A stretch of DNA of 64,000 nucleotides. Source: Paracoccaceae bacterium (GTDB lineage: Bacteria > Pseudomonadota > Alphaproteobacteria > Rhodobacterales > Rhodobacteraceae). Under the pieces are notes generated by a model. It was not told where the DNA came from. It did no database searches and saw only the letters and a list, made by a program, of their open reading frames with translations. The translations under genes and the position numbers were made by a program. How positions within the stretch are numbered: the stretch's first letter is position 1; each line of letters starts with the position of its first letter. The stretch covers positions 1-64,000 of the forward strand of contig JASBUI010000013.1 of assembly GCA_030148005.1 (NCBI GenBank), given 5' to 3'. Below, piece by piece: positions 10,602-24,220 of the stretch.

Positions 10602-11219
10602 CTAGTCGTCAGGCGGGATCAGCCCCAGGCCGCGCAGGTAGATGCCGATGCCGGTCTCCAGCAGGTCCTCTGGTGGAAAGGGGCTTTTGGTTCCGGGTGA
10701 GCCGCGCGCGAAAAGTTCGACGACGCCGTGGCTCATCGCCCAGATATGGGCCGAGAACATCTGGGCGGGGGGGCGTTTGTCGGCCGGAATGTGCTGGGAC
10801 AGATCGCTGGCCGCTTTCTGAAGAACGCCCAAGGCGCGGTTGGCGACAAGGGCCAGCTCTGGCGTTCGGTTGATCGAAATGCCGCTTTCGAACATTGCCA
10901 CGTAGTGACCGGGATACTTGCGGGCAAAGGCAAGATAGGCGCGGCCCGTCGCCTCAAAGGCGGCAAGCGCCGAGGGTTGGCCATCGGCATAGGCAAAATC
11001 CATCAGATCGCCAAAAATCTCATAGCCCTGACGCGCGGCCTCGGCGATGAGGTCTTCGCGGCCTGCAAAATGCCGGTAGACGGCGGCAGGGGTGACGCCG
11101 GCGGTTTTTGCCGCTTCGGACAGGGTAAAGCCGGTTGGCCCCTTTTCTTCGATCAGGGAAAGCGCAGCCTCGACCAGCGCGGTGCGCAGGTTGCCGTGGT
11201 GATAGCCGCGTTTAGACAT
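10602..11219 (-). CDS. TetR/AcrR family transcriptional regulator
   Basis: Start reassigned to MSKRGYHHGN (11219); HTH EAAKTAGVTPAAVYRHFAGREDLI. Confidence 0.92.
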   Translation of the reverse strand: MSKRGYHHGNLRTALVEAALSLIEEKGPTGFTLSEAAKTAGVTPAAVYRHFAGREDLIAEAARQGYEIFGDLMDFAYADGQPSALAAFEATGRAYLAFARKYPGHYVAMFESGISINRTPELALVANRALGVLQKAASDLSQHIPADKRPPAQMFSAHIWAMSHGVVELFARGSPGTKSPFPPEDLLETGIGIYLRGLGLIPPDD

Positions 11220-18140: not shown

Positions 18141-19703
18141 TCATTCCCACTCGATCGTGCCGGGAGGTTTGGAGGTGATATCATAGGTCACCCGGTTGAT
18201 GCCCGGCACCTCATTGATGATCCGCGTTGCCGTTTCCCCAAGAAATTCATGGCTGAACGGATAGTAATCGGCCGTCATGCCATCAACCGAAGTCACCGCA
18301 CGCAGGGCGCAGGCGAAATCGTAGGTCCGGCCATCACCCATGACGCCAACCGTGCGTACTGGAAGGATTGCAACGAAGGCCTGCCAGATATCATCATAAA
18401 GCCCGTGGCGGCGGATCTGGTCGATATAAACCGCGTCCGCTTCGCGCAGGATGTCCAGTTTCTGGCGCGTGATTTCACCGGGGCAGCGAATGGCAAGTCC
18501 GGGGCCAGGAAAGGGGTGGCGGCCAATGAAACTTGGCGGCAGGCCCAGTTCACGGCCCAGCGCGCGGACCTCATCCTTGAAAAGCTCGCGCAGCGGTTCA
18601 ACCAGTTTGAGGCCCATCTTTTCGGGCAGCCCGCCAACATTGTGGTGGCTTTTGATCGTAACCGACGGGCCGCCGGAAAAGCTTACGCTTTCGATGACAT
18701 CTGGATAAAGCGTGCCTTGGGCCAGAAACTTGGCGCCGCCAACTTCGCTGGCATGTTTTTGAAAGACATCGATGAACAGCTTGCCGATGATCTTGCGTTT
18801 GGTTTCAGGATCGCTTTGGCCATCGAGCGCGGATAGAAAAAGCTCCTGCTCATCGGCGTGAACCAAGGGCATGTTATAGTGATCGCGGAACATGGTGACG
18901 ACCTCTTCGGCCTCGCCTTTGCGCAGAAGTCCGTGATCGACAAAGACGCACGTCAGCTGATCGCCGATTGCCTCGTGGATAAGAACGGCCGCGACAGAGC
19001 TGTCAACGCCGCCCGACAGCCCGCAGATGACCTTGGCATCGCCGACCTGCTCGCGGATGCGGGCAATTGCCTCTTCGCGGTAGGCGCCCATGGTCCAGTC
19101 GCCCTGAAAACCGGCCAGTTTGACGAAGTTCTCGTAAAGCATGGCGCCGCGCGGCGTGTGGTGCACTTCGGGGTGGAACTGAACGGCAAAAAAGTTGCGA
19201 TCCGTGTCTGCGGTGATCGCGAAAGGCGCGTTGGGGGAGGTGCCGTAGACCTTGAACCCCGGTGCGATCTTGGCGACGTGGTCGCCATGGCTCATCCAGA
19301 CTTGTTCGGTTTCGGTAGTGAACCAGCCTTCAAGCAACTCAAGCGGTTCGCCTGCGGGCGTGACATAGGCGCGCCCGAACTCGGCGGTGCCGTGGCCACG
19401 CTCTACCTTGCCGCCAAGTTCCTGCATCATGACCTGTTGGCCATAGCAGATACCAAGGATCGGCACGCCAAGATCGAACACCTCGGCCGGTGGACGCGGC
19501 GAGCCTTCGTCGATCACGCTTGCCGGACCGCCCGAAAAGATCACCGCCCTTGGCGCGAACTCGGCCAGAAAGGCCGCGTCGACTTTTTGGAAGGGGTGAA
19601 TTTCACAATAGACGTTCAGTTCGCGCAGGCGCCGCGCAATCAGCTGCGTCACTTGCGATCCAAAGTCGATAATCAGAAGGCGGTCATGGGATTTCTGTGT
19701 CAT
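18141..19703 (-). CDS. guaA: GMP synthase (glutamine-hydrolysing)
   Basis: 520 aa; [55 protein letters not shown]-terminus. Confidence 0.97.
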
Positions 19704-19873
19704 GGCAAGGCAATATTCAGACCTGAGGGGGCATGCAAGACGGGGCAGGGCAATTTACCCAAAATTTCTGAATTGGCGCAGATGTCGTTTTCTCGCCTCA
19801 GGCGGCGGAAATCTCCTTCCTGACGGATAAATTGCCGCTATCTGATGCTGCAAGCGATCAGAAGGTACCGGCT

Positions 19874-21412
19874 ATGACAGAGGCAGCAGCGCGCAGACGT
19901 GGACGTGGTGGCGGCGGAGCGGCGCGGCGTGCCGAACGCACGGCGGTGCGGATTGAGACCGCAAAGTTCATCACGCGCAAGATCCCCAACCTTGAAATTC
20001 TTGGCGAAGAGGCGCTGGAGATCATCGAGGCCAATGCCGAGATCTTGCTTGAAGAGGTCGGTGTTGCCTTTGTTGAAAACCCCGCAGCGCTAGAGCGGTG
20101 GCGGCAAGCGGGCGCCGATGTTCAGGGCGAGCGTGTTCGCCTGCCCAAGGGCCTTGCGCGCAAGCTGTGCGAAACGGCACCTTCAAGTTTCACCCAGATT
20201 GCCCGCAATCCTGAGCGCAATGTTGACATTGGCGGTCGCAACCTTGTGCTGGCGCCGGTTTACGGCCCGCCCTTTGTGCGCGATGTCCAGGGCGGCCGGC
20301 GCTATGCGACGATGGAAGATTTCCGCAACTTCGTGAAACTTGGCTACATGTCCAAGTGGCTGCACCATTCGGGTGGCACGGTGTGCGAGCCGACGGATGT
20401 GGCCGTCAACAAACGGCATCTGGACATGCTGCACGCCCATATGACCCTGTCGGACAAACCCTATATGGGATCGGTGACAGAGCCGGTGCGGGCACAGGAT
20501 TCGGTCGAGATGTCGGATATCCTGTTCGGCGGTCTTGATGACCGGACGGTGATGACATCGCTGATCAACATCAACTCTCCGATGACTTTTGACAGCACCA
20601 TGATGGGCGCGCTGGAGGTTTATGCGGCGGCGAATCAGGCTTGTATCATCTCGCCCTTCATCGTTGGCGGCGCCATGGCGCCGGTGTCGGTTGCGGGAAC
20701 GCTGACACAGGTTCTTGCCGAAGTGCTGGCCGGCGTTGCCTATAGTCAGCTGATCCGCCCCGGCGCGCCGGTGATCTTTGGCGCTTTTGTAACGTCGATC
20801 GACATGAATTCGGGCGCGCCGACCTTCGGAACCCCCGAGGCGGCCCAGATCACCTATGGCGTGGGCCAGCTTGCCCGCCGGATGGGGCTTCCTTATCGGT
20901 CGGCCGGATCGTTCTGCGGCTCAAAGCTTCCAGATGCGCAGGCCGCCTACGAGACCGCCAATTCCCTGAACGCGGGCCTTTTGTCCGGGGTCAACTTCAT
21001 GCTGCACGCATGTGGCTGGCTGGAAGGCGGGCTTGTCAGCAGCTTTGAAAAGTTCGTGATGGATGCAGATCAGCTTGGCGTTCTGCACAAGCTGGCAGAA
21101 GGGATTTCGGTCGACGAGGACGCGCAGGCGATGGACGCGATCCGCGAAGTAGGGCCCGGTGGGCATTACCTTGGCTGCGATCACACGCAGCGCAACTTCA
21201 AGGATGCCTTCTGGCGCACGAACCTTCTGGACTACAAACCCTTTGAGACCTGGGACGAAGAGGGCGCGCGCGATACGCAAACGCTTGCCACGGCTCGTGT
21301 CAAATACCTCTTGGATAACTACCAGCAACCGGCGCTGGACCCCGCCATTGCCGAGGCTTTGGCCGAGTACGTCGCGCGCAAGAAAGAATCGATGCCCGAC
21401 GCATTTGTCTGA
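19874..21412 (+). CDS. Trimethylamine methyltransferase (MttB) family protein, non-pyrrolysine
   Basis: Start reassigned to MTEAAARRRG (19874); 512 aa MttB-like; no in-frame TAG; Arg/Gly-rich N-terminus. Confidence 0.88.
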   Translation: MTEAAARRRGRGGGGAARRAERTAVRIETAKFITRKIPNLEILGEEALEIIEANAEILLEEVGVAFVENPAALERWRQAGADVQGERVRLPKGLARKLCETAPSSFTQIARNPERNVDIGGRNLVLAPVYGPPFVRDVQGGRRYATMEDFRNFVKLGYMSKWLHHSGGTVCEPTDVAVNKRHLDMLHAHMTLSDKPYMGSVTEPVRAQDSVEMSDILFGGLDDRTVMTSLININSPMTFDSTMMGALEVYAAANQACIISPFIVGGAMAPVSVAGTLTQVLAEVLAGVAYSQLIRPGAPVIFGAFVTSIDMNSGAPTFGTPEAAQITYGVGQLARRMGLPYRSAGSFCGSKLPDAQAAYETANSLNAGLLSGVNFMLHACGWLEGGLVSSFEKFVMDADQLGVLHKLAEGISVDEDAQAMDAIREVGPGGHYLGCDHTQRNFKDAFWRTNLLDYKPFETWDEEGARDTQTLATARVKYLLDNYQQPALDPAIAEALAEYVARKKESMPDAFV

Positions 21413-21504: not shown

Positions 21505-21795
21505 TTAGGCGCCGCGCGCAAGCACCAAAAGCCGGGCCTCACCCATCATTGCGACAAGGACATCGACGTGCTGGGCGATGGAGTAGCTGGCATCGCCGTT
21601 CTTGCGGGCCTCTTCGATCTGCGCCTCGTGGTTGATCAGGGAGAGGATCGCGCGGCCCGGTGTTGGCAGTTCGCTGGTTTTCATCACGCGCCTCAGGTCA
21701 CGGGTTCGGTTGTAATCGGCCTGGCCGAGGCGGGCGGCGCGGATCAAAAGGCGCGGGCGGCGCAGCGTTTTGAGAAGGCTGAGAATGTCGTTCAT
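21505..21795 (-). CDS. DUF6477 family protein
   Basis: 96 aa MNDILSLLKTLRRPRLLIRAARLGQADYNRTRDLRRVM...; divergent from the DUF6456 gene. Confidence 0.8.
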   Translation of the reverse strand: MNDILSLLKTLRRPRLLIRAARLGQADYNRTRDLRRVMKTSELPTPGRAILSLINHEAQIEEARKNGDASYSIAQHVDVLVAMMGEARLLVLARGA

Positions 21796-21888
21796 GGTGA
21801 AAGCTCCAGCAAGGTTCGGAGCCTCATCATGGACACAACCTGAGCGGGTGTTGCGCTGTGGATAGTTTGAGCGTTCGGTCCTTTCAAA

Positions 21889-21911
21889 ATTGTTTAGGTT
21901 TTATAAACAAT
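21889..21911. promoter_or_regulatory. Perfect inverted repeat, candidate operator
   Basis: ATTGTTTA-GGTTTTA-TAAACAAT in the divergent intergenic region. Confidence 0.55.
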
Positions 21912-21931
21912 GCTGCTCAAAGTCGCAGATT

Positions 21932-21946
21932 TTAACACATCGGTAA
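21932..21946. promoter_or_regulatory. CtrA-like binding site (TTAA-N7-GTAA)
   Basis: One mismatch from the TTAA-N7-TTAA consensus; upstream of the gafA-like gene. Confidence 0.35.
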
Positions 21947-22016
21947 CAAATACAACTTTAGGTTGTGTAACCTATGTGGATAGAATTTACTGATCTGACA
22001 GGTCCCGGAGGGTGAA

Positions 22017-23147
22017 ATGATAGACACTTCCCAACCACAAAAAACCAGTCAATGCCTGCCTGGTTGGGTGCCGGAAGCTGCGCTTGCGTATCTGATTCAC
22101 ACAGAAAAAGGCCTTTCGATCCGCGCGCTGGCGCGGCGAAGGGGGTGCCATGCATCAACCGTCATGCGCCAGATCAGAAGGTTCGAAAGTCGCCGCGACG
22201 ATCCGCTTGTGGATGAAGCACTTATGCGCCTTGGCGCTGTGCATTTTCACGAAAACAACTCTTTGGATTGTAAGGAAGATTCGCATATGACAGCCCACCT
22301 GCGTCGCCCAGTTTCGGATCCTGATGAAGCCACGATAGAAAAAGAGGGGCGCCGGATTTTGCGGCGCTTGTGTGAAACGGGCGCTGTCCTTGCCGTGGCG
22401 GCGGATCTTGAGAAAGCGGTGGTTGTCCGTGATCTGCCCGGCGGGGAAAGCACGCGCACGGCTGTGGTTGATCGCCGGGTTGCGCAGGCGATGGCGCTGA
22501 AGGACTGGATTAGCTGCACCGCGCCGGGAAAGATTGCGCGCTATACGATCACGGGGGCGGGGCGCGCGGCGCTAAAGCGGCTATTGGCCGAGCAGGCGCG
22601 AGCGCGCGGATTTTCAGAGGCGCCGGCATCCTTTGGCGATCAGCACAGGATCTGGGGCGAGAAGACCTTTGAAGATGAAGAGACCGGCGCGCGCCAGCGG
22701 ATCAAGTACAACCTTGCCGAAAGCCCGCTGGCTACGCTGTCGCGCCGCAAGGACAAGGATGGGCGCAATTTTCTGTCCGATGGCCTTGTGGCTGCGGGCG
22801 AGCGGCTTCGCGAGGATTTTGAGCTTGCCCAGATGGGACCGCGTGTTGCCCAGAACTGGGAGCGTTTTCTGACAGGCGGCGATCGCGGCAGTTTTGCAGG
22901 GGACGCCGGCATGGGCGAGGGGCCTGCGGGCGCGCGCGCGCGTGTGATGGCCGCGCTGAAGGATCTTGGGCCGGGTTTGGGGGATGTCGTCTTGCGGTGC
23001 TGCTGTTTTCTTGAAGGGATGGAGACGGCGGAAAAGCGGATGGGTTGGTCGGCGCGGTCGGGCAAGATCGTCCTGCGGATTGCGCTTCAACGGCTCAAGC
23101 GCCACTATGAGATGACGAATGGCGGGCAGGCGCCGCTGATTGGCTAG
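22017..23147 (+). CDS. gafA: DUF6456 domain HTH protein; GafA-like gene-transfer-agent activator
   Basis: 376 aa; N-terminal HTH (GLSIRALARRRGCHASTVMRQIRRFE), C-terminal ESPLATLSRRKDKDGRNFL...AGERLREDFELAQMGPRVAQNWERF...DVVLRCCCFLEGMETAEKRMGWSARSGKIVLRIALQRLKRHYE. Confidence 0.72.
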   Translation: MIDTSQPQKTSQCLPGWVPEAALAYLIHTEKGLSIRALARRRGCHASTVMRQIRRFESRRDDPLVDEALMRLGAVHFHENNSLDCKEDSHMTAHLRRPVSDPDEATIEKEGRRILRRLCETGAVLAVAADLEKAVVVRDLPGGESTRTAVVDRRVAQAMALKDWISCTAPGKIARYTITGAGRAALKRLLAEQARARGFSEAPASFGDQHRIWGEKTFEDEETGARQRIKYNLAESPLATLSRRKDKDGRNFLSDGLVAAGERLREDFELAQMGPRVAQNWERFLTGGDRGSFAGDAGMGEGPAGARARVMAALKDLGPGLGDVVLRCCCFLEGMETAEKRMGWSARSGKIVLRIALQRLKRHYEMTNGGQAPLIG

Positions 23148-23257
23148 CGCGGCGGGGTATGCATTTGATGCAAAGCTGCATTTCTTGGGTCTGTTCGCGC
23201 GGGACATTCGCGTGCGGACAGGCTATATCGTGACAAAGTCCATTGACCGAGGGCACG

Positions 23258-24220
23258 ATGCGCGATCTGAAAATTCCCGAGCAACGCCATCCTGAAAAGG
23301 CGCGGCGCCCTGACAATGCCCAGCCGCGCAAGCCTGACTGGATCCGCGTCAAGGCGCCCACTTCTGCCGGATACAAGCAGACGCGCGACATCATGCGCGA
23401 GCATAAGCTGGTCACCGTCTGCGAAGAGGCCGGATGCCCCAACGTCGGCGAATGCTGGAGCCAGGGCCACGCTACCATGATGATCATGGGCGAGGTTTGC
23501 ACGCGCGCCTGCACCTTCTGCAACATCGCAACCGGCAAGCCGCCCGAGGCGCTGGATGTGTTTGAACCGGGGCGCGTGGCCGATGCGGTCAAAAAGCTGG
23601 GTCTGAACCATGTGGTCATCACCTCGGTTGATCGCGACGATGTCGATGATGGCGGGGCAGAGCATTTTGCTCAGACGATCCGCGCGGTGCGCCGCCAGTC
23701 GCCGGGGACCACAATCGAAATTCTGACGCCCGACTTTTTACGCTGTGATCCCAGCGTGTTGGAGGTTGTTGTTAATGCCAAACCGGATGTTTTCAACCAC
23801 AATCTTGAAACCGTTCCGGGCCTTTACCCCGAAGTGCGACCTGGCGCGCGCTATTTCCATTCGCTGCGTCTTTTGCAGCGGGTGAAAGAGCTTGATCCGA
23901 CGATGTTCACCAAATCGGGCATCATGGTCGGACTGGGCGAGGATCGTCAGGCGGTCCAGCAGGTCATGGATGACATGCGCGCCGCTGACATCGATTTTCT
24001 GACCATTGGTCAGTACCTTCAGCCGACGCCAAAGCACCACCGCGTTGACCGTTTTGTCACGCCAGAGGAATTTGCCGCTTATGAAAAGGCCGCCTATGGC
24101 AAGGGTTTTCTGATGGTTTCGGCAACGCCGCTGACGCGATCTTCGTACCACGCCGGGGACGATTTCGCGCGGCTTCGCAAGGCCCGGCTGGACAAGTTTC
24201 AGCGCAGCGGAGAAAGCTGA
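23258..24220 (+). CDS. lipA: Lipoyl synthase
   Basis: [39 protein letters not shown] radical-SAM and auxiliary cluster motifs; C-terminal RSSYHA. Confidence 0.97.

Follow-up and report, generated by a model that had tools for sequence, protein, structure and literature searches.

The gafA-DUF6477 locus of a Rhodobacteraceae genome and a conserved leader terminator at gene transfer agent promoters of its relatives

In Rhodobacter capsulatus, GafA (rcc01865) is a direct activator of the cluster for gene transfer agents (GTAs), which are virus-like carriers of DNA, and a site bound by CtrA falls on the gafA start site (PMC6363796). Binding of the GafA C-terminus was located to 76-125 bp upstream of g1, covering the -10 element and the start site (PMC6363796, PMC9638019), and GafA was shown to bind both RpoZ, the omega subunit of RNA polymerase, and the GTA promoter (PMC9638019). 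The rcc01866 gene lies divergent from gafA (PMC6363796, PMC9638019), and its mutant, which resembles a cckA mutant, produces immature particles without lysis (PMC9638019). In the Rhodobacterales, the gafA locus is flanked by lipA and guaA (PMC6363796). Roseobacter phage RDJLphi1 has been described as carrying homologues of gafA and rcc01866 with one ctrA-like gene between them.

Two Caulobacter proteins share homology with GafA, GafY with its N-terminal and GafZ with its C-terminal part, and GafZ is an anti-terminator that binds a palindrome between the -35 and -10 elements of the GTA promoter and does not appear to bind RNA polymerase omega (PMC11150451). An anti-terminator role for GafA itself was only speculated by the Caulobacter authors, who also stated in 2024 that GafA binding elements had not been mapped at nucleotide resolution (PMC11150451). 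In a full-text search of open-access papers, GTA anti-termination was found described only for Caulobacter, and neither R. capsulatus GafA paper (PMC6363796, PMC9638019) mentions a terminator. The value of the locus presented here lies in the comparison that it prompted.

The gafA locus and its intergenic region

The window analysed here comprises 64,000 nucleotides of a 195-kb contig from a 2.54-Mb MAG, 76% complete, assigned to Rhodobacteraceae/Paracoccaceae. The gene order is guaA, an MTTB-family gene, DUF6477, divergent gafA and lipA, as follows:

18141..19703, minus strand: guaA (GMP synthase; ORF sequence), outer neighbour of gafA loci
19832..21412, plus strand: MTTB-family methyltransferase (PF06253, E 2.2e-234), between guaA and DUF6477
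21505..21795, minus strand: DUF6477 gene, 96 aa (PF20083, E 2.1e-36)
22017..23147, plus strand: gafA, by homology the direct activator of the GTA cluster (PF20057, E 2.5e-63)
22074..22199, plus strand: N-terminal DnaA/HTH-like DNA-binding domain of gafA (GafY-like), residues about 20-61 (HTH_23, E 3.2e-5)
22704..23111, plus strand: DUF6456 domain of gafA (GafZ-like), residues 230-365 (Pfam match)
23243..24220, plus strand: lipA (lipoyl synthase; ORF), outer neighbour of gafA loci

The initial annotation had described a 376-aa DUF6456-type protein divergent from a 96-aa DUF6477-type gene, and both ORFs were recovered with the corresponding Pfam matches. The DUF6456 (PF20057) match reached 212.7 bits, far over the cut-off of 26.3, across residues 230-365 of 376, and that of DUF6477 (PF20083) reached 124.3 bits against a cut-off of 25, at nearly full length. 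Genome-wide searches found one copy of each in the source genome. GafA consists of an N-terminal HTH, a central region with beta strands and DUF6456; the HTH family matches, at residues 20-66, were all sub-threshold and to generic families rather than DnaA-specific ones. S47, T48 and R51 of the recognition helix are invariant among orthologues, and the HTH helices of the AlphaFold model (pLDDT 81) have pLDDT above 95. Full-length orthologues share 56-77% identity in most relatives and 33-42% in an Aliiroseovarius-like group, and DUF6456 was also detected in the Caulobacter vibrioides control genome. A PDB sequence search with GafA and its profile gave a single weak HTH match (5d1r, E 0.013), Foldseek with the GafA model returned only weak winged-helix matches and no structural match to known anti-terminators, and profile comparison of lambda Q with GafA indicated no relation.

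The generic character of the N-terminal HTH would suit the idea that the 22017-23147 product is an unrelated HTH regulator, but this was refuted already by the DUF6456 profile match (E 2.5e-63), and the single copy, the conserved synteny and the CtrA site described below speak against it as well. The DUF6456 match, its single copy, the guaA-gafA-lipA synteny and the CtrA site likewise uphold the initial proposal of a GTA master-activator locus, and we regard it as very probable that the locus comprises gafA and its partner gene, the master-activator locus for an RcGTA-type GTA. The locus itself is an ordinary chromosomal gafA locus and a routine orthologue.

Among 80 relatives, a guaA homologue was found within 5 kb of the gafA locus in 60 and lipA within the same distance in 42. 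An MTTB-family gene occupies the same position in 60 of the 80, so it has long been linked to the gafA locus; the gene is probably not functionally part of the gafA system, and no in-frame TAG was found in its ORF (19832..21412). The divergent gafA/DUF6477 pair was present in all 79 other genomes with a readable flank, a count conditional on the presence of DUF6477, since these loci were retrieved by DUF6477 similarity; given this recurrence, the arrangement is not due to chance. The gafA loci of the source genome and of a congener align at 76-83%.

The 221-bp intergenic region (21796-22016) between the divergent genes contains the following elements, listed without strand:

21833..21855: conserved block A, ACACAACCTGAGCGGGTGTTGCG, on the DUF6477 side
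21872..21877: CGNNCG element (CGTTCG), candidate site of the GafA C-terminal domain
21889..21911: ATTGTTTA-N7-TAAACAAT, a perfect inverted repeat that overlaps the place where the gafA core promoter is expected
21932..21947: CtrA site (sequence match), TTAACACATCGGTAAC, an exact TTAAC-N6-GTAAC 85 bp before the gafA start

The TTAAC-N6-GTAAC site was exact in 51 of 79 loci and had at most one mismatch in 75, against a background from mononucleotide shuffles of 0 exact matches and 0.8% with one mismatch. CGNNCG was found at a fixed distance in 57 of 61 non-redundant gafA promoters (shuffle mean 2.0, max 7). Block A, which near DUF6477 has the form CAAC-N10-GTTG, recurred at this position as CAA-N8-13-GTTG in 50 of the 61 (0.2 in shuffles), and a match of the inverted-repeat type was present in 23 of 61 relatives (0.05 in shuffles). 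GtaR/LuxR-type or GafA sites are candidates for the blocks at 21833-21855 and 21889-21911.

The GTA cluster and its regulators across genomes

The initial annotation had suggested looking for an RcGTA-like cluster elsewhere in the genome. Searches for GTA_TIM, HK97 capsid and GTA-type TerL in the source assembly (76% complete) found none, yet the interval that carries the cluster in a congener is itself missing, so that this result leaves the identification of the locus standing. In the congener (G001), the cluster encodes TerL, portal, tail tube, DUF2460, hub and an Rcc01698-like GTA_TIM protein, and is flanked by rplI, fabG, acpP, fabF and mltG on one side and by cysE and pdhA on the other. 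When these 30 kb were compared with the source genome, the matches amounted to one paralogue each of the fabG and fabF type and a stretch of 34 bp; the MAG lacks the entire rplI-fabG-acpP-fabF-mltG-GTA-cysE-pdhA interval, essential genes included. Since the housekeeping flanks are missing as well, the absence of the cluster is uninformative about GTA loss.

A survey of 299 genomes, one per genus and at least 90% complete except for the source genome (G000), detected DUF6477 in 274, DUF6456 in 278 and GTA_TIM in 265. As the genomes are phylogenetically related, the p-values that follow are indicative. gafA and DUF6477 occurred together in 273 genomes, with 5 carrying gafA only, 1 DUF6477 only and 20 neither (OR 1092, p 1.6e-25). 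For DUF6477 and GTA_TIM, 258 genomes had both, 16 DUF6477 only, 7 GTA_TIM only and 18 neither (OR 41, p 2e-14); for gafA and GTA_TIM the corresponding numbers were 262, 16 with gafA only, 3 with GTA_TIM only and 18 (OR 98, p 7e-17). Both gafA and DUF6477 therefore track the GTA cluster. Additionally, five Rhodobacteraceae genomes (G131, G285, G103, G172, G224) contain 4-7 GTA_TIM copies each, which are probably prophages with GTA-like tail genes.

Loss of the cluster in this strain, which would leave gafA-DUF6477 as a remnant or in the service of another regulon, would agree with the empty searches of the source assembly and with near-complete relatives (G113, G041, G130, G182) that keep gafA and DUF6477 while TerL is broken or absent. 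It is nonetheless improbable, considering that the assembly is 76% complete and misses the whole carrying interval, essential genes included, that the few matches are paralogues, that the congener has the cluster, and that gafA and DUF6477 are intact in the source genome. As regards decay in general, 15 near-complete genomes have DUF6477 and lack GTA_TIM, of which 11 still have TerL and 4 have none; TerL is interrupted by a stop in G113, split in G041 and truncated in G211, G027 and G267. In these five genomes and in G130 and G182, gafA and DUF6477 are kept with TerL broken or gone. These cases are consistent with a course of decay in which structural genes are hit before regulators, and the regulators seem to outlive the cluster.

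Promoters and leader terminators in relatives and the possible action of GafA

The region upstream of TerS/TerL was compared in 32 Rhodobacteraceae genomes, all relatives of the source strain; in several other retrieved loci, recognition of TerL or of the promoter failed. The GTA promoters conform to TTGAC-tTTgCGaaCGgTC-N-GTAtA or a close variant, and CGNNCG was found between -35 and -10 in 26 of the 32 spacers (shuffled spacers: mean 1.4, max 6). The CGNNCG element is thus common to gafA and GTA-cluster promoters, and in the congener it lies about where the R. capsulatus GafA C-terminus binds. When the GTA-promoter element was described by a weight matrix of 12 positions, its enrichment in gafA promoters was modest (26% versus 7% at score 10), and the matrix was set aside, since only the CGNNCG core at its fixed position was strong.

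In 27 of the 32 GTA leaders, a GC-rich hairpin followed by a T-tract, that is, an intrinsic terminator, precedes the first gene, whereas the same strict rule was satisfied by 1.4% of 67-nt windows elsewhere in the same loci (binomial p about 2e-45); the remaining 5 promoters did not meet the rule. The stems differ widely in sequence and keep their pairing, a result obtained from per-sequence folding and pair tabulation that carries no covariation statistic; twelve examples had z-scores from -2.3 to -5.7. This procedure replaced RNAalifold, which returned no pairs from a MAFFT alignment of the leader hairpins because hairpins of different length misalign. In the congener, the leader terminator (L035:9087-9118) was called by RNAfold, its bulged stem having been passed over by a simple ungapped-stem scanner. 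A second strong terminator is present in the congener between TerL and portal (L035, about 10905-10932), which is not conserved, as 10 of 30 relatives have something similar. What is new here, and of interest to specialists, is the pair of the conserved leader terminator of the GTA cluster and the CGNNCG promoter element.

Taking CtrA and GafA binding, GafZ anti-termination and the rcc01866 phenotype from the other species in which they were established (PMC6363796, PMC9638019, PMC11150451), the following sequence of events can be proposed. CtrA would bind the TTAAC-N6-GTAAC site near the gafA start site and drive gafA transcription, and GafA, as a fusion of GafY and GafZ, would bind its own promoter and that of the GTA cluster. 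Its GafZ-like DUF6456 domain would sit on CGNNCG between the -35 and -10 elements of the GTA promoter, from where GafA would recruit and modify RNA polymerase, enabling read-through of the promoter-proximal intrinsic terminator and transcription of the whole cluster. Given that the C-terminal domain of GafA is homologous to the anti-terminator GafZ, GafA likely loads at CGNNCG and carries polymerase through the terminator; we infer this to be the most economical model and consider an anti-terminator role for GafA at the GTA leader reasonably probable.

On the other hand, GafA could only recruit RNA polymerase, in a sigma-like manner through omega, in which case the leader hairpin would have nothing to do with GafA and serve as an insulator or in RNA stability. 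The binding of RpoZ and of the GTA promoter by R. capsulatus GafA (PMC9638019) is in agreement with recruitment, as is the finding that GafA matches Q proteins neither by fold nor by profile; moreover, since R. capsulatus GafA binds omega and GafZ apparently does not, the mechanisms of the two may differ. However, anti-termination is proven for the homologous GafZ, which loads between -35 and -10 (PMC11150451), CGNNCG and the GafZ element lie at the same place in their promoters, and a terminator between the transcription start site and the first gene, as found in 27 of 32 leaders, would block the operon unless overcome. Recruitment alone is therefore rather unlikely, and anti-termination by GafA is the preferred reading, while the leader terminator could also serve another regulator.

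DUF6477, its phage carriers and comparison with known systems

The initial view that the function of DUF6477 is undescribed was not quite right, because the protein corresponds to rcc01866/Dshi_1585, whose mutant phenotype has been published (PMC9638019). Judging from its position and its phage linkage, DUF6477 almost certainly belongs to this family, since RDJLphi1 carries DUF6456, CtrA-type and DUF6477 genes as published for the homologues. The AlphaFold model of DUF6477 is all-helical (pLDDT 84), and the N-terminal half of the protein is conserved and strongly basic. Neither a PDB sequence search with DUF6477 and its profile nor a Foldseek comparison of its model with the PDB (best E 2.8) gave a match, and the sole credible viral structural match in Foldseek was the RDJLphi2 homologue.

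In RDJLphi1, gp38 is a DUF6456 protein (E 9.1e-11), gp37 is of CtrA type with the DNA-binding domain only and no receiver, and gp36 is DUF6477 (E 3.7e-7), its gene lying 3' of and overlapping the ctrA-like gene. A PHROG match had suggested that gp38 is "anti-termination protein Q-like" (E 0.0012), an assignment that was dropped since the lambda Q comparison indicated no relation. A prophage contig (IMGVR_UViG_2883777802_000003) encodes DUF6477 (6e-10) and a GafA-like DUF6456 protein (1e-11) in the same direction at L165:2842-4294, near an integrase and possibly with a 104-aa ORF between them. The GafA-like and DUF6477 pair is thus linked in two phage lineages; a scan of viral contigs with the DUF6477 alignment found nothing. 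As a separate observation, L042 (MW462191.1), labelled "Bacteriophage sp.", contains a DnaA-HTH gene and a DUF6456 gene beside a "sulfur acceptor protein" gene, an arrangement equal to the Hyphomicrobiales chromosomal gafA synteny, and is probably a mislabelled bacterial contig.

The simplest reading is that DUF6477 probably works with GafA/CtrA at late promoters; it would be a co-factor devoted to maturation and lysis, the late step, and would act at the level of transcription, which fits the published no-lysis, immature-particle mutant. The similarity of the rcc01866 and cckA mutants (PMC9638019) would agree with a DUF6477 that acts upstream, on the CckA-ChpT-CtrA phosphorelay, and not at promoters. 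This is less likely, considering that the CtrA linked to DUF6477 in RDJLphi1 keeps only its DNA-binding domain, with no receiver to phosphorylate, so that DUF6477 is unlikely to control its phosphorylation there, and that in the prophage contig no ctrA was recognised between DUF6477 and the nearby GafA-like gene. The phage linkage thus suggests promoters, and not the phosphorelay, as the place where DUF6477 acts.

Taken together, a conserved terminator would gate RcGTA-type GTAs across the Rhodobacteraceae, GafA would act as an anti-terminator in the style of phage late genes via CGNNCG, which is also present in its own promoter, and DUF6477 would be an ancestral phage partner at late promoters, downstream of the phosphorelay. 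To this combined reading we assign a probability of roughly 0.55.

With respect to known systems, the R. capsulatus GafA (rcc01865)/rcc01866 locus shares the domain layout, the divergent small gene and the guaA/lipA synteny (PMC6363796, PMC9638019), as well as a TTAAC-N6-GTAAC site for CtrA some 70-90 bp ahead of the start codon, and differs by the MTTB gene that lies here, as is common in the relatives searched, between guaA and DUF6477. RDJLphi1 gp36-gp38 similarly link GafA-like (DUF6456) and DUF6477 genes, although these are co-directional, with a receiver-less CtrA between them, a shortened DUF6477 and a GafA only about 25% identical. Lambda Q and Q21 share the predicted logic of a loading element inside the promoter, a leader terminator and read-through, but lambda Q has no sequence relation to GafA by profile comparison and there is no fold match. 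In Caulobacter crescentus, the counterparts of DUF6456 and the HTH are GafZ and GafY, respectively (PMC11150451), and the GTA promoter, as in the relatives studied here, combines an element between -35 and -10 with a downstream terminator to overcome. Unlike in Caulobacter, the GafY and GafZ parts are fused in one protein; the terminator of the Rhodobacteraceae is one intrinsic hairpin ahead of the first gene, whereas Caulobacter has three 150-bp repeats after it; and gafA is under CtrA here, whereas Caulobacter gafYZ is repressed by RogA. The conserved leader terminator and promoter element provide base-level targets for anti-termination tests in R. capsulatus.
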